In this document: piece after piece, positions 51,507 through 62,705 of the stretch
Numbering within the stretch: the first letter of the stretch is position 1
How the letters are laid out: every line of letters starts with the position of its first letter
Assembly: GCF_901827185.1 (NCBI RefSeq)
Contig: NZ_LR594671.1
Location: forward strand, 3,844,001 to 3,908,000
Reading direction: 5' to 3'
Origin: Variovorax sp. PBL-E5
Lineage (GTDB): Bacteria > Pseudomonadota > Gammaproteobacteria > Burkholderiales > Burkholderiaceae_C
DNA: 64,000 nucleotides
The notes under the pieces: generated by a model
What the model was told of the DNA's origin: nothing
Database searches by the model: none
The model's input: only the letters and a program-made list of their open reading frames with translations
Made by a program: the position numbers and the translations under genes

Positions 51507-52427
51507 TCACGGGCTCGCATTGGGAAAGAACAGCTGCTCGCCACCGATCCTGTAGCTCGCGATGGTCGATTGCCCCGCCGGCGAGATCACCCAGTCGACG
51601 AACTTCTGCGCGCCCGCGCTGTCGAGCCGGGGAAACTTCGCCGGGCTGGGAACCATGACGCCGTACTGGTTGAAGAGCCGCTTGTCGCCTTCCACCAGCA
51701 CCGCGAGATCCTGGCGGTTCCTGAAGCTCAGCCAGGTTCCGCGGTCGGCCAGCACATAAGCGCCGCTCGAAGCCGCGATGTTCAGCGCCGGCCCCATGCC
51801 GCAGCCGCATTCCTTGTAGCCCGCGCCCTTCCTGTCGTTGGGCACCGGCTGCCCCGCGTCGGCCACGCCGGTCTGCATCCACAGGCGGCGCTCGGCGGCG
51901 TCGGTACCGCTCTTGTCGCCGCGCGACACGAAAGGCGCATCCGCGGCGGCGACCTTCTTCAGCGCCGCCACGATGTCCTTGCCCCGGAGCCCGGCGGGAT
52001 CGTTCTTCGGCCCGACCAGCACGAAGTCGTTGTACATGACCGGATAGCGCTTGGCGGCAAAGCCTTCGGCGACGAACTTCTCCTCGGCCGCCGTGTCGTG
52101 CACGAACAGCACGTCGGCATCGCCGCGCCGCGCCATGTCGATCGCCTGGCCGGTGCCGACCGCCACCACCTTGATGTCGATCCCGCTGGCCTGTCTGAAC
52201 GCCGGCAGCAGATGCGCGAACAAGCCGGACTGCTCCGTCGAAGTCGTCGATGCCATCGTAAGAGTCTCAGCCCGCACCGACCAACCGCTCAAAAAAAGTA
52301 CCCCCGCGGCCAGCGAAGCGAAGCCCGTTCGCGAAACACCGCGGAACCGGCTCTGCCGGGCCGCCGGTGTTGCCCCCTGCAAGGGGGTGGGCGGCCACAC
52401 GAAGTGGGCAAGCCTGGGGGTGTTCAT
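51507..52427 (-). CDS. tupA: TupA-like tungstate/molybdate-binding protein with a repeat-derived N-terminus
   Basis: A 306-residue periplasmic oxyanion-binding protein. The ligand motifs LTMASTTSTEQSGLFAHLLP (about 57-76) and VSRGDKSGTDAAERRLWMQ (about 161-179) match TupA. Residues 1-33 are encoded by a dispersed intercistronic repeat (see 52334); the hydrophobic core FASLAAGVLFLSGW of the signal peptide lies just after it. No ATG or GTG in frame exists between the repeat and the mature protein, and the ATG at 52427 has a perfect AAAGGAG site and overlaps the tupC stop (ATGA). The repeat therefore seems to have been co-opted as an extended signal n-region. Confidence 0.82.
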   Translation of the reverse strand: MNTPRLAHFVWPPTPLQGATPAARQSRFRGVSRTGFASLAAGVLFLSGWSVRAETLTMASTTSTEQSGLFAHLLPAFRQASGIDIKVVAVGTGQAIDMARRGDADVLFVHDTAAEEKFVAEGFAAKRYPVMYNDFVLVGPKNDPAGLRGKDIVAALKKVAAADAPFVSRGDKSGTDAAERRLWMQTGVADAGQPVPNDRKGAGYKECGCGMGPALNIAASSGAYVLADRGTWLSFRNRQDLAVLVEGDKRLFNQYGVMVPSPAKFPRLDSAGAQKFVDWVISPAGQSTIASYRIGGEQLFFPNASP

Positions 52428-52430
52428 ATG
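52334..52430 (-). repeat. Structured intercistronic repeat, copy 1 (at tupC-tupA junction)
   Basis: About 91 bases are nearly identical to copy 2 at 59881 (five differences). Outer arms AACACCGCGG and CCGC-C-GGTGTT pair over 10 bases with a one-base bulge, enclosing an inner hairpin CCGGC-TCT-GCCGG; a second hairpin CCCCCT-GCA-AGGGGG follows. This copy starts immediately after the tupC stop codon and runs into the tupA reading frame. Confidence 0.85.
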
Positions 52431-53116
52431 CTTTCTCCTTTGACGAACAAATGGGCTTCATCCGGCAGCCGTCCGTCGAAGAAATCGTGCACCGGCAGAT
52501 CGGCCAGCACCCGCCCCTGCTCCAGATAGATCACACGGCTGGCAAGGCGCTTGACCTGCCCGAGGTTATGGCTCGCGAACACCAGCGTGCGCCCGTGCGC
52601 GGCATCGGCGATCAGCGCTTCGACATCGCGCTTGGCCGTCGGATCGAGGCTGGCCGTCGGCTCGTCGAGCAGGAGCACCTGGGGCTGCAGCGCCCAGGCG
52701 CGCGCGAGCGCCATGCGCTGCTGCTGGCCGCCGGACAGCGTGCGCGCATTGCGCTCGGCCAGCGCGCCGAGGCCGACGCGGCCCAGCGCGGCCATGGCCT
52801 CGCGCTTCGCATGAGGCCACGGCGCGCCGCGCAGCCAGAGCGCGAGCGCGACGTTGTTGCGCACGCTCGTGCGCAGCATGTGCGGCCGCTGGAACAGCAT
52901 GGCCTGCGCGCGGCGCGGCACCCTGCCGATGAACGCGCCGGCCGCATGCGGCACCAGGCCGTGCAGCATGCGCAGCAGGGTGCTCTTGCCGCTGCCGTTG
53001 GCACCGATCAGCGCGACACGCTCGCCCGCGTGGATCGACAAAGTCGCGCCGGACAGCGCCTGGACGCGGCCGAAGCGAACCTCGATGTCGTGCAGGCTGA
53101 AGAGCGGCGGATTCAC
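52424..53116 (-). CDS. tupC: Tungstate/molybdate-type ABC ATPase
   Basis: A 230-residue ABC ATPase with Walker A RVALIGANGSGKSTLLRMLHG (about 36-55), signature LSGGQQQRMALARAWALQP (about 131-149), Walker B VLLLDEPTASLD and switch His in VFASHNLGQV. The start is GTG at 53116, overlapping the tupB stop (GTGA); the stop overlaps the tupA start (ATGA). It powers uptake of tungstate or molybdate with TupB. Confidence 0.88.
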   Translation of the reverse strand: MNPPLFSLHDIEVRFGRVQALSGATLSIHAGERVALIGANGSGKSTLLRMLHGLVPHAAGAFIGRVPRRAQAMLFQRPHMLRTSVRNNVALALWLRGAPWPHAKREAMAALGRVGLGALAERNARTLSGGQQQRMALARAWALQPQVLLLDEPTASLDPTAKRDVEALIADAAHGRTLVFASHNLGQVKRLASRVIYLEQGRVLADLPVHDFFDGRLPDEAHLFVKGESI

Positions 53117-53862
53117 GAAGCCACCTCGATCCCGCGGACCCCGGCCGCCTCGGCCGCGCCGCCGTCGACCCGCTCGCGCCAGCTGCGCAGCGCCGAGATC
53201 GCCAGATTGAGCAGCAGCATCGTGCCGAGCAGCACCAGCCCGAGCGCCAATGCGAGCGGCAGGTCGCCCTTGCTGGTCTCGAGCGCGATGGCGGTGGTCA
53301 TCACCCGCGTGAAGCCGTCGATGTTGCCGCCGACGATCATCACCGCACCCACCTCCGACACGGCACGGCCGAAGGCGGCGATCAGCACCGTGATCAGCGC
53401 ATAGCGTTCGTCCCACACCAGCAGCAGCGCGCGGACGAGCGAGTCGGCGCCCAGCGAGCGCAGCTGCTCGCCATGGGCGCGGTCGGCGTCCTCGATGGTC
53501 TGGCGCGTCAACGCCGTGACCACCGGCAGCACCAGCAGCGTCTGCGCGACCACCATCGCCTTGAAGGAGAACAGCCATCCGAGAAAACCCAGCGGCCCCG
53601 AACGCGACAACAGCAGGTAGATCGCGAGCCCCACCACCACCGAGGGCAATGCGAGCAGCGTGTTGAGCAGCGTCAGCAGCAGCCCGCGTCCCGAGAAGCG
53701 CGCCACCGCGAGCCAGGCCCCCAGCAGCAGGCCGAAGCCGCAGGCCAGCGCGCAGGCGGTGGCGCTGACGGCGAGCGAACGGCCGACGATCGCCAGCAGC
53801 AGCGGATCGCCGGCGACGACCAGGCGGCCCGCCTCGACGGCGCTATCGGCGAAGGCGTTCAT
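53113..53862 (-). CDS. tupB: Tungstate/molybdate-type ABC permease
   Basis: A 249-residue permease with five to six transmembrane helices. The region ALPSVVVGLAIYLLLSRSGP matches TupB, and the EAA-type coupling loop is EDADRAHGEQLRSLGADSLV. It forms a homodimeric channel. The ATG at 53862 begins MNAFADSAVEAGRLVVAGDP. It is the first tup gene, 120 bases after livF ends; its Mo/W import could serve the cox-type molybdenum enzyme encoded elsewhere in this window. Confidence 0.87.
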   Translation of the reverse strand: MNAFADSAVEAGRLVVAGDPLLLAIVGRSLAVSATACALACGFGLLLGAWLAVARFSGRGLLLTLLNTLLALPSVVVGLAIYLLLSRSGPLGFLGWLFSFKAMVVAQTLLVLPVVTALTRQTIEDADRAHGEQLRSLGADSLVRALLLVWDERYALITVLIAAFGRAVSEVGAVMIVGGNIDGFTRVMTTAIALETSKGDLPLALALGLVLLGTMLLLNLAISALRSWRERVDGGAAEAAGVRGIEVAS

Positions 53863-53992
53863 GCGCGCCTTCGGGCGGGAGAGACGGGAAGCCGAGGATG
53901 CGCCGCGGCTCGGGACAAGCCGGGCGGCCGGCATCTGTTCGCAGGTCGCATGGGCCTCAGCATAACGCCCGGCCCGCGACCGGCTGCCTGCC

Positions 53993-54738
<746 letters not shown>

Positions 54739-54742
<4 letters not shown>

Positions 54743-56568
54743 GCGATCGCCTCTTCCATCGGCTCGTCCGCGCCGCCGAGATAGGCATCCAGCACCTTGG
54801 GATCGGCCTGCACCTCGGCCGGCGTGCCCTGTGCGATCACGGCGCCGAACTCCAGCACGGTGATGCGGTCGGCCAGGTTCATGACGAACTCCATGTCGTG
54901 TTCGACGATCAGGATGCCCAGGCCCTCGGCGCGCAATTGGCCGAGCAGCATGGCCAGCGCGCGCTTCTCGAGATGGCGCAGCCCCGCGGCCGGCTCGTCG
55001 AGCAGCAGCACGGCCGGGTGCCCCGCCAGCGCGCGCGCGATCTCGACCACGCGCTGCTGGCCCAGCGACAGCGAGGCCGCGGGCGCATCGGCCACCGCGC
55101 CGAGCCCACAACGATCGAGTTGGCGATGCGCCTGCGCGAGCAATGCGGCTTCTTCCGCACGGTCCAGCCGCAGCATGGAAGCGATCCAGCCGCGCTGTCC
55201 GCGCCGGTGCGCGCCGAGCGCGACGTTCTCGATCACGCGCCGCTGGCCGAGCAGGCGCACGTGCTGGAAGGTGCGGCCCAGGCCCAGTGCGGCAAAGGCG
55301 CGCGAGGGCTGGCCGGTCATGGCCCGGTCCATCAGACGGACCTCGCCGGCGCTCGGGTCGTCGACGCCCGAGATCATGTTGAAGAAGGTGCTCTTGCCGG
55401 CGCCGTTGGGCCCGATCAGCGCATGGATCTCGCCGGCCTTCACGTCCATGCTGACCGCGTCGTTGGCGACCAGCCCGCCGAAGCGCTTGGTGACCGCGTG
55501 CGCCTGCAGCACCACCTGCCCGCGCGGCGGCAATGCGGCCTCGGGCAGCGTCAGCGTGCGGCGCGGAGCGCGCACCGCGTCCGGCCGCAGGAAGCGTGCG
55601 CACAGGCGCGCCAGCGTCGGCCACACGCCGTCGGCGAAGCGCTGCAGCACGAACAGCATCAGCAAGCCGAACACGATGATCTCGAAGTTGCCGCTCGAGC
55701 CGAGCAGCTGCGGCAGGACGTCCTGCAGTTTCTCTTTCAGCAGCGTGATGATCGCCGCGCCGAGCACCGCGCCCCACAGGTGGCCCGCGCCGCCGACCAC
55801 CGCCATGAAGAGGTACTCGATGCCGATGTCGAGGTTGAAGGGCGTCGGGTTGATGAAGCGCTGCATGTGCGCATAGAGCCAGCCCGACACGGCGGCCAGC
55901 AGCGCCGCCAGCACGAACACCTTGATGCGGTAGCGGGCCGTGTCCACACCCATCGACTCGGCCATCACGCGCCCGCCCTTGAGTGCGCGGATGGCCCGGC
56001 CTTCGCGCGAATCGAGCAGGTTGTGCAGCGCCCACAGCGCCAGCAGCAGCACGCCCCAGATCACGAGGCCGAGCGAGCGCGGCGACGCGAAGGACCAGCC
56101 CGCGACCACGATCGCCGGCACGCCCGCGACGCCAGTGTGGCCGCCGAGGAACTCGAGGTTGCCGAACAGGTAGTAGAAGCTCAGGCCCCAGGCCATCGTG
56201 CACAGCGGCAGGTAGTGGCCCGACAGCCGCAGCGTGATGGCGCCCAATCCCCAGGCGACGACGAAGGTCAGCACGATGCCGAACAGCAGGCCGACCCATG
56301 GCAGCGCCGCCGGCCCGAGCAGGCCGGCGATCGCGGCGCTCGCGCCGGGCGAGGTGCAGATCCAGGCCGTCGCATAGGCGCCCGTGCCGACGAAGGCCGC
56401 CTGGCCGAAAGAGGTCATGCCGCCGACGCCGGTCAGCATCACGAGGCCGGCCGCGACCATCGCATAGAGGCCGACGTAGCACAGCACCTGCACCGGGAAG
56501 TCGGGCAGGAAGCCCCACACCGCGGCCAGCAGCACGACGAAGGCGAGCGACAGGTGACGGCGCGTCAT
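54739..56568 (-). CDS. livMG: Fused LivM permease and LivG ATPase
   Basis: A 609-residue single polypeptide. Residues 1 to about 330 are a LivM permease with about eight transmembrane helices (LVMLTGVGGMTSFGQAAFVG; RALKGGRVMAESMGVDTARY). A linker of about 30 residues leads to a LivG ATPase with Walker A IHALIGPNGAGKSTFFNMIS, the TQPSRAFAALGLGRTFQHVR loop, signature LSLGQQRVVEIARALAGHP and EHDMEFVMNLADRITVLEFG. There is no stop codon or internal start near the junction. Its own ATG overlaps the livH stop. Fused LivMG proteins are known from Burkholderiales. Confidence 0.92.
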
Positions 56569-57593
56569 TCCTCGTCCTCCACATGCCGGCTGCGCAGCGA
56601 GCGCCACCACAGCACCGGGATGATGAGCGTGAAGACGAACACCTCCTTGAAGGCGCTGGCCCAGAAGGAGGAGAAGGATTCGAGCTGCCCGACGATCAGC
56701 GCGCCGACCAGCGCCAGCGGATAGCTGCCGAGCCCGCCGACGATCGCGGCGACGAAGCCCTTGAGGCCGATCAGGAAGCCGGTGTCGTAGTAGATCGTGG
56801 TCAGCGGCGCGATCAAGAGGCCCGAGACCGCGCCGATCAGCGCCGCGAGCGCGAAGCTCAGGTCGCCCGAGAGGCCGGTCGGAATGCCCATCAGCCGTGC
56901 GCCGACGCGGTTCATCGCGGTCGCGCGCAAGGCTTTGCCGACGATCGAGCGTTCGAAGAAAAGAAACATCAGCAGCACCAGCACGGCCGTGACGCCGACC
57001 ACCACCAGCGACTGCCCGGTGACCGGGATGCCGCCGATGTCCGTGCGCAGTTCGGAGAAGGCCGGCGTGCGCGAACCCTCGGCGCCGAAGAACAACAAGC
57101 CGAGCCCGACCAGCACGCCATGCAGCGCCACCGACACGATCAACAGCGTGAGCACGGTGGCATCGGCCAGCGGCCGGTAGGCGAGGCGGTAGAGCAGCGG
57201 CCCGAGCGGCATGATCAGCACCAGCGCAGCGACCGATTGCATCAGCAGCGAAGCCGGCCGCAGCCACAGCACCAGCGCGCAGGCCGCCAGCGGCAGCGCC
57301 ACGCACCATGCGAGGGTCGAGGTCCAATCGACCTCGGCGCCGCGCTTCCAGCGCCAGCCTTCCACCGCGAGCGCGGCCGCGGCCAGCACCAGCAGCAGCC
57401 ACAGCGTGGCCGGCACATGGCCGGCCTGCATCGTGGCCACCGACAGCGCACTGAAGGCGACGAACTCCCCTTGCGGGATGAAGATCACCCGGGTCACGGA
57501 GAACACCAGCACCAGCGCCAGCGCCATGAGCCCGTAGATCGCCCCGTTCACGATCCCGTCCTGCCCCAGGATCAGGGCGATCTGGCTGTCCAT
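56565..57593 (-). CDS. livH: LivH-type ABC permease
   Basis: A 342-residue permease with about nine transmembrane helices: ILGQDGIVNGAIYGLMALAL at the start, FSVTRVIFIPQGEFVAFSAL, the coupling helix LRATAMNRVGARLMGIPTGL and LIAPLTTIYYDTGFLIGLKG with FVAAIVGGLGSYPLALVGAL. It forms the channel with the LivM part of the fusion. The ATG overlaps the livK stop. Confidence 0.92.
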   Translation of the reverse strand: MDSQIALILGQDGIVNGAIYGLMALALVLVFSVTRVIFIPQGEFVAFSALSVATMQAGHVPATLWLLLVLAAAALAVEGWRWKRGAEVDWTSTLAWCVALPLAACALVLWLRPASLLMQSVAALVLIMPLGPLLYRLAYRPLADATVLTLLIVSVALHGVLVGLGLLFFGAEGSRTPAFSELRTDIGGIPVTGQSLVVVGVTAVLVLLMFLFFERSIVGKALRATAMNRVGARLMGIPTGLSGDLSFALAALIGAVSGLLIAPLTTIYYDTGFLIGLKGFVAAIVGGLGSYPLALVGALIVGQLESFSSFWASAFKEVFVFTLIIPVLWWRSLRSRHVEDEE

Positions 57594-58738
57594 CAGGGTT
57601 GATATTTCCAGGTGCCGTTCTCGATCTTGACCATCACGCGGGCGCGCTGGTCCAGGCCCAGGTGGTCGGTCGGCGACATCGTGAAGATGCCGTGCGCGCC
57701 GGCCACGTCCTTGACCGATTCGAGCGCATCACGCAGCGCCGCGCGGAACTCCGGCGTGCCCGGCTGCGCCTTCTTGAGCGCGACCGGCACCGCGGCATTC
57801 AGCACCTGGCCGGCATCCCAGACATGGCCGCCGAAGGTGGAGACGCTGCCCTTGCCGTACATATCCTCGTAGGCCTTGACGTAGGCGCTCGCCGATTTCT
57901 TGATCGGGTTCGAATCGGGCAGTTGCGCCGCCACCAGGATCGGGCCGGCTGGCAGGAAGGTACCCTCGACGTCCTTGCCGCCCACGCGCAGGAAGTCGGT
58001 ATTGGCCACGCCGTGCGTCTGGTAGATCGTGCCGGTGTAGCCGCGCTCCTTGAGCGTCTTCTGCGGCAGCGCGGCCGGCGTGCCCGCCCCTGCGATCAGG
58101 ATGGCGTCGGGCTTGGCGGCCATCAGCTTGAGCGCCTGGCCGGTGACCGAGGTGTCGCTGCGGCCATAGCGTTCGTTGGCGACGATCTGCAGCTTCTTCA
58201 GCGCCGCGGACTTGCCGAATTCCTCGTACCAGCCCTCGCCGTAGGCATCGGAGAAGCCGATGAAGCCGACCGTCTTGATGCCGTGCGATGCCATGTGCTC
58301 GGCAATCGCGAGCGACATCATGATGTCGTTCTGCGGCGTCTTGAACACCCATTTGCGCTTGGCATCCATCGGCTCGACGATGCGCGACGAGGCGGCCAGC
58401 GAGATCACGGGCACCTTCGCCTCGGCCACCACGTCGATCATCGCCAGCGCGTTGGGCGTGACGGTCGAACCGATGATCACGTCGACCTTGTTCTCGCTGA
58501 TCAGCTTGCGCGTGTTGGACACCGCGGCCGTGGTGTCGGACCCGTCGTCCAGAACGATGTAGTTCACCTTCTGGCCGCCCATGGTCTTGGGCAGCAGCGC
58601 GATGGTGTTCTTCTCGGGAATGCCGAGCGATGCCGCTGGCCCGGTGGCCGACAGCGTGACGCCGACGTTGACGTCGGCATGCGCCGAAAAGGCCAGCGCA
58701 CACAGGATCGCCGCGCAGACGCGGGAAAGAGATTTCAT
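57593..58738 (-). CDS. livK: LivK-type periplasmic substrate-binding protein
   Basis: A 381-residue type I periplasmic binding protein. The signal peptide is about residues 1-21 (VCAAILCALAFSAHA). The mature part has VNVGVTLSATGPAASLGIPE, LISENKVDVIIGSTVTPNAL and TVGFIGFSDAYGEGWYEEFG. It binds an amino acid or aromatic acid and delivers it to LivH-LivM. It follows paaE by 35 bases on the same strand, so uptake of a phenylacetate-pathway substrate is a reasonable inference. Confidence 0.9.
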   Translation of the reverse strand: MKSLSRVCAAILCALAFSAHADVNVGVTLSATGPAASLGIPEKNTIALLPKTMGGQKVNYIVLDDGSDTTAAVSNTRKLISENKVDVIIGSTVTPNALAMIDVVAEAKVPVISLAASSRIVEPMDAKRKWVFKTPQNDIMMSLAIAEHMASHGIKTVGFIGFSDAYGEGWYEEFGKSAALKKLQIVANERYGRSDTSVTGQALKLMAAKPDAILIAGAGTPAALPQKTLKERGYTGTIYQTHGVANTDFLRVGGKDVEGTFLPAGPILVAAQLPDSNPIKKSASAYVKAYEDMYGKGSVSTFGGHVWDAGQVLNAAVPVALKKAQPGTPEFRAALRDALESVKDVAGAHGIFTMSPTDHLGLDQRARVMVKIENGTWKYQP

Positions 58739-58773
58739 TGTTGGCTCCGAAGGTTGAAGGAAAACGGGCCGGC

Positions 58774-59865
58774 TCAGCGTTCGTCGAAAGACAGCACCAC
58801 GCGCTCCGTCAGCGGATGCGCCTGGCAGGTCAGGATGAAACCGGCCGCGACCTCATTCTTGTCGAGAGCGAAGTTCCGCTCCATCCGCACTTCCCCTTCC
58901 AGGAGCCGCGCGCGGCAGGTGCCGCAGACGCCCGAGGTGCAGGAAAACGGCACCTCCAGCCCGGCAGACGAGGCGGCATCGAGGATGCTCGGCTGCCCCT
59001 TGCTGAACGGGATCTCGCGCCTGAGGCCGTCGCGCACGATGGTGATGCGCGCCGCTTCGGCATCGCCCGGCAGTGCCTCGTGCACCACCGCGCCGACGCC
59101 GCCCGGCCCAGTCGCCGGCTGCGCCACGCCGAAGCGCTCGATGTGGATGCGCTCCTCGGGCACGCCGGCTTCCAGCAGCGCGGCCTCGGCCTCGTCGTTC
59201 ATCTGGAACGGGCCGCAGATGTAGGCATGGTCGATCTCCGCCGCGGGCACGACGCTCTGCAGGAACTGTGCGATCTTCTCGCGGTTCATCACGCCCATGT
59301 TGATCGGCGCATCGGTGTGCTCGTCGGAGAACACGTGCTGCAGCACCAGCCGCGTCATGTAGCGGTTCTTCAGGTCCTCGATCTCTTCCTTGAACATCGT
59401 GGACTGCAATTGCCGGTTGCCGTAGATCAGCGTGAAGCGGCTCCGCGGCTCGCGTGCCAGCACCGTCTTCATGATCGACAGGATCGGCGTGATGCCGCTG
59501 CCGCCCGCGATGCCGACATGGTGGTGCTGCGCGCCGGGCTCGATCGGCACGAAGAAGCGGCCCTGCGGCGCCATCACCTGCAGCGTGTCGCCGGGCTGCA
59601 GCGTGCTGTTGATCCAGTTGGAGAACACGCCGTCGCGCACCTTGCGCACGCCCACGCGCAGTTCGCCGTCGTCGACGCCGGCGCAGATCGAATAGGAACG
59701 GCGCAGGTCCTGGCCATCGATCTGCGTGCGCAGCGTGAGGTACTGGCCCTGCGTGAAGCCGAAGACCTCGCGCAGTGCTTCGGGCACATCGAAGGAGACG
59801 ATGACCGCCTCGGCCGTGTCGGGCTCGATCCTGCGCACGCGCAAGGAATGAAAGTCAGCGCTCAT
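58774..59865 (-). CDS. paaE: Ring-1,2-phenylacetyl-CoA epoxidase reductase subunit PaaE
   Basis: A 363-residue flavo-iron-sulfur reductase. The FAD domain has LRRSYSICAGVDDGELRVGV, the NAD domain GIAGGSGITPILSIMKTVLA, and the C-terminal plant-type [2Fe-2S] domain has FSCTSGVCGTCRARLLEG with a fourth Cys in ILTCQAHP. It passes electrons from NADPH to the PaaA di-iron centre. The ATG at 59865 follows repeat copy 2, whose edge supplies CTGGAAGGA as ribosome-binding site. Confidence 0.94.
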   Translation of the reverse strand: MSADFHSLRVRRIEPDTAEAVIVSFDVPEALREVFGFTQGQYLTLRTQIDGQDLRRSYSICAGVDDGELRVGVRKVRDGVFSNWINSTLQPGDTLQVMAPQGRFFVPIEPGAQHHHVGIAGGSGITPILSIMKTVLAREPRSRFTLIYGNRQLQSTMFKEEIEDLKNRYMTRLVLQHVFSDEHTDAPINMGVMNREKIAQFLQSVVPAAEIDHAYICGPFQMNDEAEAALLEAGVPEERIHIERFGVAQPATGPGGVGAVVHEALPGDAEAARITIVRDGLRREIPFSKGQPSILDAASSAGLEVPFSCTSGVCGTCRARLLEGEVRMERNFALDKNEVAAGFILTCQAHPLTERVVLSFDER

Positions 59866-59880
59866 GTCGAATCCTTCCAG

Positions 59881-59978
59881 AAACGCCGCGGAACCGGCTT
59901 TGCCGGGCCGCTGGCGTTGCCCCCTGCAAGGGGGTTGGCGGCCACACGAAGTGGGCAAGCCTGGGGGTGTTCGTCATA
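59881..59978 (-). repeat. Structured intercistronic repeat, copy 2 (between paaD and paaE)
   Basis: The same element as at 52334. Outer stem AACGCCGCGG with CCGC-T-GGCGTT, inner hairpin CCGGC-TTT-GCCGG, second hairpin CCCCCT-GCA-AGGGGG. Compared with copy 1 the outer stem changes A to G on one arm and T to C on the other, keeping the pair. It fills the gap between the paaD stop and the paaE ribosome-binding site. Confidence 0.85.
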
Positions 59979-60513
59979 TCCGTTTGAAGTGTTCGAAGGG
60001 TTCGCGACATGCGATGCAGCGATACAGCGACTTGCAGGCCGTCGATCCAAAGGCCGACAGACGTTCGGTGTGGGCGCTGCCGCAACGCGGACACGCCACG
60101 GACTCCGCGGGCACGGAGGACCGCCGCACGATGCGGATCGGCACCGCGCCATCGGACGGCCGCGTCGCGCCGGGCGGTGCGATGCCATAGGCCGTGAGCT
60201 TGCGCCGGCCTTCGTCGCTGATCCAGTCGGTGGTCCAGGCCGGCGCGCGGCGCAGGCTCACGCGCGCGGGGCCGAGGCCGGCGGCTTCGATGGCCGCGAG
60301 CACGTCGCGCTCGATCACCTCGGTGGCGGGGCAGCCCGAATAGGTCGGGGTCAGCACGATCTCGAGTCCGTCGTCATCGGGCAGCACATCGCGCACGATG
60401 CCGAGGTCGCAGACCGAGAGCGCGGGGACCTCGGGGTCGAGCACGGTGTCGAGCACGGCCCATGCGCGCGCGACGCGCGGGTCGACGTGCAAGCGTGCGG
60501 GCACTGCGCTCAC
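59974..60513 (-). CDS. paaD: Phenylacetyl-CoA epoxidase assembly protein PaaD
   Basis: A 179-residue protein with an N-terminal DUF59/MIP18-like domain (DTVLDPEVPALSVCDLGIVR; LTPTYSGCPATEVIERDVLA) and a C-terminal zinc-ribbon with two CxxC knuckles (VACPRCGSAH and YRCIACREPFEHFKRI). PaaD helps mature the iron centre of the epoxidase. The start is a GTG at 60513 overlapping the paaC stop (GTGA); the stop is followed at once by repeat copy 2. Confidence 0.92.
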   Translation of the reverse strand: MSAVPARLHVDPRVARAWAVLDTVLDPEVPALSVCDLGIVRDVLPDDDGLEIVLTPTYSGCPATEVIERDVLAAIEAAGLGPARVSLRRAPAWTTDWISDEGRRKLTAYGIAPPGATRPSDGAVPIRIVRRSSVPAESVACPRCGSAHTERLSAFGSTACKSLYRCIACREPFEHFKRI

Positions 60514-61286
60514 CACACGCCTCCCGGGAAGGCGCGCTGCAGATGCTGCATCTCGGCGAGGATGTAGCCCATGTGCTCGCTGTGCACGCCGCGCTTGCCG
60601 GTGCTGCGGAAGGCAGTCTCCTTCGGCGCCACGAGCGTGGCTTCCTCGAGCACGGCATTCATCTCGGCCAGCCAGGGCTCGCGCAGTTCCGACCAGCAAG
60701 GCCCGAGCCCGGCCGCACGGGCTTCCTGCTCGACCGCATCGGACTCGAAGCACTCCGGCACATAGCGCCACAGCTGCTCCAATGCCGCGTCCATGCGCGC
60801 ATGCGATTCGGCTGTGCCGTCGCCCAGGCGCACCACCCAGTCGGCGGAATGCTGCTGGTGGTAGCGCGCCTCCTTCAGCGCCTTGCCGGCGATGGCCGCG
60901 AGCTCTTCGTCGCTCGACGATGCAAGGCGCTCCCACAGCAGCTTGAGCAGCGTCGCGACCATGGTGTTGCGCAGCACGCTGAAGCCGAAATCGCCGCGCG
61001 GCAATTCGACCAGGGTGAGGTTGAAGTAGTCGCGCTCGTCGCGCAGAAAGGCGAGCTGGTCTTCGTCATGCGCACGGCCTTCGAGCTGGCCGGCACGGGT
61101 GAGCAGCGCGCGCGCCTGGCCGACGAGGTCGAGCGCGATGTTGCTCATCGCGATGTCTTCTTCCAGCGCGGGCGCATGGCCGCACCATTCGCCCAGGCGC
61201 TGCGCGAGGATCAGGCAGGTGTCGGCGATGCGCAGCAGGTACTGCACGGCCGCGCTGCGCTCGATGTCGATGGAGGCTACTGGCAT
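60510..61286 (-). CDS. paaC: Phenylacetyl-CoA epoxidase structural subunit PaaC
   Basis: A 258-residue ferritin-like subunit: VQYLLRIADTCLILAQRLGE, DIAMSNIALDLVGQARALLT, ALKEARYHQQHSADWVVRLG and the C-terminal HSEHMGYILAEMQHLQRAFP. It pairs with PaaA but lacks its di-iron site, acting as a scaffold. The ATG at 61286 has AAGGAG, placed at the end of repeat copy 3. Confidence 0.94.
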   Translation of the reverse strand: MPVASIDIERSAAVQYLLRIADTCLILAQRLGEWCGHAPALEEDIAMSNIALDLVGQARALLTRAGQLEGRAHDEDQLAFLRDERDYFNLTLVELPRGDFGFSVLRNTMVATLLKLLWERLASSSDEELAAIAGKALKEARYHQQHSADWVVRLGDGTAESHARMDAALEQLWRYVPECFESDAVEQEARAAGLGPCWSELREPWLAEMNAVLEEATLVAPKETAFRSTGKRGVHSEHMGYILAEMQHLQRAFPGGVW

Positions 61287-61304
61287 GCAAATGGCTCCTT
61301 CCAG

Positions 61305-61400
61305 GAATACCGCGGAACCGGCTTTGCCGGGCCGCTGGTATTGCCCCCTTGAGGGGGGATTCGGCTACGCGAAGCGAGCAAGAAACGGGGGTGGGCCATG
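61305..61400 (-). repeat. Structured intercistronic repeat, copy 3 (between paaB and paaC)
   Basis: The hairpin half is conserved: AATACCGCGG with CCGC-T-GGTATT (outer stem, again with compensating changes), inner CCGGC-TTT-GCCGG, and CCCCCT-TG-AGGGGG. The second half diverges from copies 1 and 2. It begins right after the paaB stop codon and ends at the paaC ribosome-binding site CTGGAAGGAG. Confidence 0.8.
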
Positions 61401-61401
61401 T

Positions 61402-61701
61402 TCACATGTGGTCGACAGACTTGGGCAATGCGTAGAAGGTCGGATGCCGGTAGACCTTGTCTTCCGCCGGATCGAAGTACATGTCCTTGTCGCCCGGATC
61501 GCTGGCGACGATCTGGTCGGAGCGCACCACCCACACGCTCACGCCTTCCTGGCGCCGCGTGTAGACGTCGCGCGCCATCTGCAGCGCCATCTTCGGGTCG
61601 GGCGCATGCAGGCTGCCGCAATGCTTGTGGTCGAGGCCGGCCTTGCTGCGCACGAACACTTCCCACAGCGGCCACTCCTGGTGCTGAACGTCCTGCGTCA
61701 T
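61402..61701 (-). CDS. paaB: Phenylacetyl-CoA epoxidase subunit PaaB
   Basis: A 99-residue subunit starting [20 protein letters not shown], with [20 protein letters not shown] and [20 protein letters not shown]. PaaB bridges PaaAC dimers in the epoxidase complex. The ATG at 61701 overlaps the paaA stop by 4 bases; a longer upstream frame lies inside paaA and is not the gene. Confidence 0.94.
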
Positions 61702-62705
61702 GCGGCTTCCTTCATTGGTTGTTTGCGCGCATGGGCCAGCGCGGCTTCGCGCACCCAGGCGCCCTCTTCCCAGGCCTTCACGCGGGCACCGAGCCGCTCG
61801 CGGTTGCACGGCCCGTCGCCGGCGATCACGCGCCAGAATTCGTCCCAGTCGATCGCGCCGTGGTCGTGCGCCTGGCGCTCCTCGTTCCACTTCAGGTCGG
61901 GGTCGGGCAAGCTCACGCCCAGCACCTTGGCCTGCTCGACCGCGGCATCGATGAACTTCTGCCGCAGGTCGTCGTTGGAGAAGCGCTTGATGCCCCAGCG
62001 CATCGACTGCGCGCTGTTGGGCGATTGTTCGTCGGGCGGCCCGAACATCATCACCGAGGGCCACCACCAGCGGTTCACCGCGTCCTGCACCATCGCCTTC
62101 TGTGCTTCGGTGCCGTGCTGCATCATCGTGAGCAGCGCCTCGTAGCCCTGGCGCTGGTGGAAGCTTTCCTCGCGGCAGATGCGGATCATCGCGCGCGCAT
62201 AGGGCGCATAGGAGCAGCGGCAGATCGGCACCTGGTTCATGATCGCGGCGCCGTCGACCAGCCAGCCGATGGTTCCCATGTCGGCCCAGGTCAGCGTCGG
62301 GTAGTTGAAGATCGAGCTGTACTTGGCCTTGCCCGTGTGCAGTGCGTCGAGCAACTGGTCGCGGCTGGTGCCCAGCGTCTCGGCGGCGGCGTAAAGGTAG
62401 AGGCCGTGGCCGCCCTCGTCCTGCACCTTGGCCAAGAGGATCGCCTTGCGCTTCAAGGTCGGCGCGCGGCTGATCCAGTTGCCTTCGGGCAGCATGCCGA
62501 CGATCTCGGAATGCGCATGCTGGCTGATCTGCCGCACCAGCGTCTTGCGGTAGTGATCGGGCATCCAGTCCTTGGCCTCGATGAAGCTGCCGGCATCGAT
62601 GCGCTCGTCGAAGCGCTGCTCGAGCTGCATCTCCTCGGCGGAACGCACGGCCTTGGGGCCGTCGGCCTTGTCCTTGCCCATGGTGTCCATCGCTTGCGTG
62701 TACAT
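61698..62705 (-). CDS. paaA: Phenylacetyl-CoA epoxidase catalytic subunit PaaA
   Basis: A 335-residue di-iron oxygenase subunit. Key parts are [40 protein letters not shown] (Glu-x-x-His ligands), [20 protein letters not shown] (second Glu-x-x-His) and [20 protein letters not shown]. It makes the ring-1,2-epoxide of phenylacetyl-CoA. It follows the ligase gene by 20 bases, with an AAAGGA ribosome-binding site before the ATG at 62705. Confidence 0.95.

Follow-up and report, generated by a model that had tools for sequence, protein, structure and literature searches.

The Beta-proteobacterial Repeat Element (BRE) is about 90 bp long (75-91), has a G+C content of 69% (63.7-78.9), and is usually intergenic, dispersed and sometimes in tandem (Hot et al. 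2011, PMC3110155). It was reported from Bordetella and Comamonadaceae, with 29 copies in Polaromonas sp. JS666 and 13 in Delftia acidovorans; it lies between lexA and the convergent neighbour in Bordetella, is not oriented with the replication fork, and has no assigned function (PMC3110155). In E. coli, repetitive extragenic palindromic (REP) sequences reportedly stall ribosomes and reduce translation when they are no more than 15 nt from a stop codon, a spacing seen for 446 of 4,072 REPs (~11%) in the RepRanger set and 260 of 496 in a study cited there (PMC12306157). REPs tagged with GTAG or CGTC lie mostly between co-directional or convergent genes, near gene 3' ends, and frequently provide a TAG stop; the same account mentions, from a 2006 survey, REP-like families in Bordetellae that have no tag (Di Nocera et al. 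2013, PMC3733652). REP/TnpA-REP systems combine dispersed copies that fold as DNA hairpins, with a bulge that is required in E. coli, and a chromosomal tyrosine transposase, RAYT (REP-associated tyrosine transposase; PMC8266576). We describe an element of ~95 nt with three hairpins that occurs three times in a 64-kb window of Variovorax sp. PBL-E5 (the whole stretch of 64,000 nucleotides analysed, positions 3,844,001 to 3,908,000 of contig NZ_LR594671.1). On balance we favour the reading that it is a non-autonomous, untagged REP-like mobile repeat of BRE type.

Each of the three copies stands behind the stop codon of a minus-strand gene, copy 1 within an ABC-transporter gene pair and copies 2 and 3 inside the paa operon. 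A preliminary description of the window had located all three correctly, and its outer stems, constant GCGG/CCGC and CCGGC/GCCGG and CCCCCT/AGGGGG hairpins are as we find them. It had also placed the copies between genes on the transcribed strand. The orientation does follow the genes, but the letters given were those of the plus strand; the flanking genes are read from the minus strand, so the mRNA carries the reverse complement. In transcript order, each copy consists of the stop codon, a few bases, a CCCCC tract, stem-loop A (SL-A), SL-B, SL-C and a tail. SL-A, which the preliminary description missed and which itself shows compensatory changes, is built around CAC-GAA-GTG, replaced by CGC-GAA-GCG in copy 3 (plus-strand letters). 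SL-B is the CCCCC/GGGGG hairpin (CCCCCT/AGGGGG) of each copy. SL-C has six outer pairs, GCGG/CCGC and an inner CCGGC/GCCGG; the outer stem reads AACACC/GGTGTT in copy 1, AACGCC/GGCGTT in copy 2 and AATACC/GGTATT in copy 3, while GCGG/CCGC is constant. The distance from the stop codon to the element core is 5, 8 and 14 nt in the three copies, and that from the element to the next start is 111, 16 and 19 nt. In the copies of PBL-E5 (hereafter own copies), the tail 3' of SL-C has the consensus TCNSGAANGG (77 copies). The parts of the three copies are given below in window coordinates; bit scores refer to R1, a covariance model built from 28 of 29 own copies (one truncated copy was left out) and spanning 101 positions with flanks.

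52327..52425, minus strand: copy 1, whole element with short flanks; R1 match of 103.9 bits; between the ABC ATPase gene (stop 52424-52426) and the TupA-like gene
52390..52414, minus strand: copy 1 SL-A, the stop-proximal hairpin, from fold and alignment
52373..52387, minus strand: copy 1 SL-B (CCCCCT/AGGGGG), from sequence and fold
52335..52371, minus strand: copy 1 SL-C (AACACC/GGTGTT, GCGG/CCGC, inner CCGGC/GCCGG), from sequence and fold
59874..59972, minus strand: copy 2, whole element with short flanks; R1 match of 107.6 bits; between paaD (stop 59974-59976) and paaE (start 59865)
59937..59961, minus strand: copy 2 SL-A, from sequence and fold
59920..59934, minus strand: copy 2 SL-B, from sequence and fold
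59882..59918, minus strand: copy 2 SL-C (outer AACGCC/GGCGTT), from sequence and fold
61298..61396, minus strand: copy 3, whole element with short flanks; R1 match of 97.2 bits; between paaB (stop 61402-61404) and paaC (start 61286)
61360..61384, minus strand: copy 3 SL-A, compensatory variant (CGC-GAA-GCG loop region, TTC/GAA outer arm), from sequence, fold and alignment
61344..61357, minus strand: copy 3 SL-B, from sequence and fold
61306..61342, minus strand: copy 3 SL-C (outer AATACC/GGTATT), from sequence and fold

Rfam gave no match at gathering score in the whole window; at E<=1 the sole match between 52200 and 61500 was weak, unrelated and at 58333-58446, with none on the copies. Folding energies had z values of -1.0 to -2.4 (six strands folded), which is by itself weak evidence for structure because the element is very G+C rich.

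The element is a dispersed repeat. Unselected own sequence (800 kb) held 26 copies, to which the window adds 3, and R1 gave at least 148 matches in the genome of PBL-E5; as only 150 candidates were scored, the true number is probably higher. R1 matches were present in 41/41 congeners and in 43 of 60 genomes of the family, taken as one genome per genus, with per-genome match numbers in both scans being lower bounds. A second covariance model, R2, comprising SL-B and SL-C, was run on 150 genomes of the order with stricter filters and matched four of them at E<=1e-4: PBL-E5, one genome of the same family and two genera of a family designated f4. Within the f4 genus that includes genome G197, all six genomes carried matches (2 to 127), some of them in tandem, and tandem copies were also found in loci L158, L160 and L077. 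Exact-pattern matches in named records (19 stretches) include Achromobacter sp. Root83, Methylibium, Rubrivivax, Aquabacterium and Caldimonas. The own copies have a mean G+C content of 72.6% (range 66.7-80.2; 87 full copies). High copy number, intergenic location, palindromic structure and closeness to gene 3' ends, the broad marks of a REP-like sequence, were all found.

Variation was also seen in the third hairpin. Own copies A211169, L221, L171, L174 and L215, together with positions 2284-2386 of L082, have the usual SL-A and SL-B followed by a different third hairpin (around GCCGCTT...), and the 3' module of the element looks exchangeable. A sister repeat, CCCCCACGCT...CACTGCGTGTGG...GCTGCCCCC (varied), has yet another third hairpin and lies close 3' of the guaB stop in L312, L317, L318, L326 and L337.

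Placement was assessed for all 102 copies in the own sequence scanned, 100 of which have a predicted gene on both sides; 73 of the 102 came from regions fetched for a model match, and the other 29 are the 26 unselected copies and the window's 3. The preceding gene was on the same strand in 88/100 copies and on the other strand in 12/100, and in 82/100 the core began no more than 15 nt after a co-oriented gene's stop codon. By strand of the preceding and following gene, the copies divide into 68 same/same, 20 same/anti (convergent), 9 anti/anti and 3 anti/same; the 29 copies not fetched by match gave 24 same/same, 2 same/anti and 3 anti/anti. Under uniform placement, 21.0 of 67 copies in co-oriented gaps and 8.3 of 20 in convergent gaps would be expected within 15 nt, compared with 63 and 19 observed. 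In convergent gaps the shorter gap was on the 5' side of the element in 19/20 cases, a preference for its own upstream stop that tolerance alone does not explain. Of 74 loci chosen from other genomes, 25 belong to the same genus and 21 were found by R2 and given an estimated 30-nt correction. An upstream gene could be called in 73 of them; it was co-oriented in 68 and lay within 25 nt in 61. These counts agree with the expectation of the preliminary description that the copies would be intercistronic, right after stop codons and on the strand of the gene. An unrelated near-symmetric repeat of the same sequence, CCCTCTCCC...GGGAGAGGG, served as a placement control and gave 6 same/same, 6 anti/anti and 4 same/anti hits with gaps of 10 to 787 nt; this control is one repeat family with 16 hits, two of the four patterns tried having given 0 hits and one having given 1.

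Orientation follows the gene and not the assumed replication fork. With the origin taken at 0 and the terminus at mid-contig (G+C skew is weak), 85/147 copies ran with the fork (p 0.07 for a departure from one half), as did 470/824 genes in the large stretches and 241/473 in the targeted pieces. Replication-strand targeting of the kind seen in IS200/IS605 was dropped.

The stop codons before the element also differ from those of genes at large. Among 82 such stops, TGA, TAG and TAA numbered 34, 33 and 15, compared with 646, 129 and 48 among 824 genes overall (one unreadable). TAG and TAA are thus over-represented before copies, and so the element or selection alters stop codons; in the filled/empty pair at A67324, TAG stands at the filled site and TGA at the empty counterpart. 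Own copy A214101 has taken the place of a gene end, and the reading frame of that gene continues through the copy.

In front of paaC and paaE, GGAAGGA from the element tail stands just before the start codon. Shine-Dalgarno-like tails were found in 7/16 copies with a start within 30 nt, 14/46 with a start farther away and 12/21 with the next gene opposed (83/100 copies had a usable tail). A general role as a ribosome-binding-site cassette was dropped, as such tails are no commoner near starts. Own copy A113201 and one other own copy have a tail in common nearly to the start codon (CTGGAATGGAGCAATTGC), as if the ribosome-binding site were carried along.

Pairing in the stems is maintained by compensatory change. 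Among own copies (28 rows), 95.1% of cells pair; both-sided changes occur at 9/30 pairs (4.0 +/- 1.1 in shuffled alignments) and in 35 cells (shuffled alignments, 9.9 +/- 2.2; slid structures, 10 or fewer), and 0/500 shuffles reached either value. Across genera (51 distinct sequences), both-sided changes were present at 10/20 pairs and in 87 cells against 22.4 +/- 3.7, again reached by 0/500 shuffles. SL-A subtypes keep their pairing, as at pair 20-31, which is G-C in 15 copies, C-G in 11, U-A in 1 and U-G in 1. Further pair types were no more numerous than in shuffles, 77/500 (own) and 315/500 (cross-genus) of which reached the count. When each copy was compared with its nearest neighbour (90 of 97 full own copies, those with a neighbour within 12 differences), 304 differences fell in 2,464 unpaired positions, while 5,220 stem positions had 102 changes on one side only and 47 on both sides with Watson-Crick pairing kept. 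Stems therefore vary less than unpaired bases between nearest copies, and pure neutral decay after insertion was rejected on this constraint. Stem covariation is real, and selection on RNA or DNA structure, which the preliminary description had read from three copies, is borne out in both alignments and by the constrained stems. Of the two outcomes that it had named as refuting, no significant covariation in a large alignment and hits scattered without regard to gene ends and strand, neither was observed.

A structure selected as single-stranded RNA should depart from Watson-Crick pairing on one side mostly through G·U and rarely through A·C. In 97 full own copies (104 aligned), Watson-Crick cells numbered 2,699; of the remaining cells, G·U and A·C accounted for 33 each and other combinations for 41. 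Seven distinct tRNAs taken from the loci had 13 G·U and 0 A·C (Fisher p 0.0004 against the element, with cells that are not independent). Cruder G·U:A·C counts over all rows were 40:35 (own), 25:20 (mainly other genomes) and 13:13 (alignment A4). Because G·U is not favoured over A·C, the covariation does not point specifically to folding as mRNA. Such strand symmetry would be expected if pairing is needed in DNA or if both arms change jointly, and it does not exclude an RNA role as well. Compensatory changes within a repeat need not imply RNA function, and the G·U versus A·C count is a cheap added test.

Occupancy was compared at orthologous junctions, starting with those of the window. The neighbouring genes are listed here; starts and stops come from a gene model trained on the own genome, and names from NCBIfam models above cut-off unless stated.

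61698..62705, minus strand: gene directly upstream of paaB, named paaA by gene order alone, from the gene call
61402..61701, minus strand: paaB, upstream gene of copy 3 (TIGR02157 above cut-off)
60510..61286, minus strand: paaC, downstream gene of copy 3 (TIGR02158 above cut-off)
59974..60516, minus strand: paaD, upstream gene of copy 2 (TIGR02159 above cut-off)
58774..59865, minus strand: paaE, downstream gene of copy 2 (TIGR02160 above cut-off; start by gene call)
52424..53116, minus strand: ABC transporter ATP-binding protein, upstream gene of copy 1 (no model above cut-off among the matches listed)
51507..52223, minus strand: TupA-like substrate-binding protein, downstream gene of copy 1 (NF041772 at 221 bits, below the curated cut-off of 400)

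Of 30 congeners compared between paaB and paaC, the element is present in 2 (PBL-E5 and G062); in 17 the two genes stand 2 to 30 nt apart, and the remaining 11 carry different inserts there, 103 to 384 nt long. These other inserts comprise at least three palindromic kinds (L086, L090, L099 and L101; L087 and L096; L088, L092, L098, L104 and L106), and the junction is for that reason a hot or safe site for palindromic repeats. Between paaD and paaE, 3 of 30 congeners have the element (PBL-E5, G098 and G086), G086 with two copies in opposite orientation (L109 760-981), and in relatives L081 and L082 the two genes meet in an ATGA overlap. In a comparison with G067, one of nine own copies with both flanks mapped was shared (14 tried in the first 400 kb, 5 unmapped), and one of three G067 copies was shared in the reverse direction (5 tried); a further site, A328307, holds a short element-like remnant. 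It is because occupancy differs at orthologous junctions that we regard the element as mobile, without having caught an insertion event.

Some upstream genes recur. The gene before the element is IMP dehydrogenase (guaB) in four genera and CysD in three, named by NCBIfam for one and two genera respectively and by BLASTP for the rest. Within the own genus, the element stands behind guaB in 1 of 30 loci and, by coordinates, in G094, which is outside those 30. Behind guaB in many congeners (L309, L311, L313, L316 and others) there is a small gene preceded by a TCTGGCC-rich region, and its product resembles a Phd-type antitoxin. The paaB-paaC copies of PBL-E5 and G062 have all hairpins identical and agree in 115/121 columns, with the differences at the ends, compared with 75.0% identity at 124 fourfold sites of paaC and 78.6% at 42 of paaB. 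Among pairs of copies behind homologous genes, agreement within the element exceeded that at fourfold sites by 7 to 28 points in 10/12 pairs and was about equal to it in the remaining two (74.5% vs 74.9%; 74.3% vs 72.7%).

In the mechanism that we propose, the hairpins would be needed first by the element itself, to be recognised or processed as folded DNA by some enzyme; we infer this need because the pairing constraint is about equal for both strands. Source copies would covary because the hairpins serve the element's own spread. Insertions would survive where their cost is least, at a stop codon, and some copies may supply the stop codon themselves, as the excess of TAG and TAA suggests. 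Once inserted, the element would be transcribed and, by analogy with E. coli REPs, would form a stable block of hairpins behind the terminating ribosome. On its geometry the element could stall ribosomes as is reported for those REPs, and a post-stop block of this kind might alter mRNA decay or translation for its gene. Copies may have been kept for that effect at some sites, possibly between paaB and paaC (two species) and behind guaB (four genera), and a tuning of gene ratios is possible. Least-harm survival, stop-codon supply, a selected effect on the upstream mRNA and targeted entry are all in play as causes of the placement. The same folded cassette stands at more than 100 gene ends, and if it influences mRNA decay or ribosome release it would do so genome-wide. 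Its sense placement behind stop codons makes the long-standing question of selfish DNA versus gene control in REP-like repeats directly testable where junctions occur both filled and empty, as paaB-paaC and paaD-paaE do.

Several observations weigh against a mobile REP-like repeat. We found no mobilising enzyme, the candidate looked at being the Y1 transposase: no copy lay within 1.5 kb of a Y1-transposase (RAYT) gene in 11/11 loci examined (of 38 matches), and the 3/41 congeners without a Y1_Tnp match (two of them drafts <90% complete) still had at least 21 to 64 element matches. All but one of the 148 own matches are on contig C1, the other being on C3, although contigs other than C1 hold ~20% of the genome, and such near-confinement is unlike a freely moving element. 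Terminal inverted repeats and target duplications were not definable in the species compared, which are too diverged. The excess likeness of paired copies can reflect constraint at the site, conversion or the arrival of similar copies independently of each other, and not plain decay; as unrelated copies also resemble each other, it is no proof of local constraint. Finally, the G·U:A·C test was heterogeneous, with 1:15 in the outer stem of SL-C and 9:1 in its inner stem; SL-B gave 10:4.

A dedicated cis-acting RNA is one alternative: its hairpins would be selected within every resident mRNA, where they would signal processing and stability at the 3' end or between cistrons and so set ratios inside operons. 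This reading would account for the predominance of one orientation, the short and narrow distance to the stop, an orientation that tracks genes and not the fork, and stems constrained relative to unpaired bases. It would also suit the paaB-paaC copy that is unchanged in two species, the 10/12 pairs more alike than fourfold sites, and the recurrence of the same upstream genes across genera. On the other hand, G·U is no commoner than A·C (33:33), the same junctions are patchily occupied among congeners, 2/12 pairs diverge like fourfold sites, and other inserts occupy paaB-paaC in 11/30 congeners. The preliminary description had suggested that the copies may act as mRNA elements; the contrast of 33:33 with 13:0 in tRNAs, and a turnover between species like that of a mobile repeat, speak against it, and we consider this explanation unlikely, if worth keeping in view.

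More doubtful still is active targeting, in which transcription or translation steers insertion, into DNA or copied from RNA, to the stop codons and strand of transcribed genes, for example by copying from, or entry behind, mRNA with a terminating ribosome, and so spreads a post-stop hairpin cassette through the operons of an order. It would explain why polarity persists in convergent gaps (5' gap shorter in 19/20), where tolerance alone should be symmetric, why fork direction adds nothing (85/147 copies; 470/824 and 241/473 genes), and why the one other palindromic repeat of the same sequence shows no such rule (16 hits). Yet no enzyme or target motif is known and all three kinds of stop codon precede the element; stop supply by the element together with selection may suffice, the upstream gene is on the other strand in 12/100 copies, and a gene reads on through copy A214101, which sits in its end.

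That the element is a canonical GTAG/CGTC-tagged REP moved by the genome's own RAYT is very improbable. One Y1_Tnp match per genome in 38/41 congeners, the size of the copy family and a TAG stop in 33/82 cases fit such a system, but GTAG or GTGG near the 5' end is at control level (10/87 full copies vs 8/102 control 20-mers), CGTC occurs in 3/87 full copies, so that no conserved terminal tetranucleotide was found, no copy is near RAYT in the 11 loci, there are three hairpins rather than one, and copies persist in the three congeners without a RAYT match. A transcription terminator, which stable hairpins behind stops and the 20/100 copies in convergent gaps might suggest, is scarcely credible, as 68/100 copies lie between co-oriented genes, including inside paa and guaB-guaA in L052, and the tail consensus 3' of SL-C (77 copies) has no U-run of the kind expected of an intrinsic terminator.

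The only near match in the open-access literature searched, as far as the sources drawn on extend, was BRE; the sense-oriented post-stop rule and the covariation of this element were not found there, which is no proof of absence from print. Like E. coli REPs, the element is a palindromic repeat behind genes (PMC12306157); unlike them, it lies within 15 nt of the stop in 82/100 copies, has three hairpins and is mostly in one orientation. It resembles tagged REPs in lying mostly between co-directional or convergent genes, near gene 3' ends, and in the frequent TAG stop, and differs in having no conserved GTAG tag. It differs from the REP/RAYT pair described in the passages used here in the lack of a tag and of linkage to a RAYT gene in the 11 loci examined. 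R2 gave 0 matches at lexA in 30 loci (76 found) of family f4, loci that are not recognisable as the reported Bordetella species. The preliminary description knew of no described function, and none is assigned to BRE; it had not recognised a dispersed repeat (~150+ copies) that is probably BRE (PMC3110155). Compared by description and not by sequence, the element agrees with BRE in length, G+C content and host range, occurs in tandem at some loci and, like BRE, is not oriented with the fork; we regard it as a probable BRE. The section and passages of the BRE account used here give no stop-codon or sense-orientation rule and no covariation (PMC3110155), whereas the element in Variovorax sp. PBL-E5 has both.

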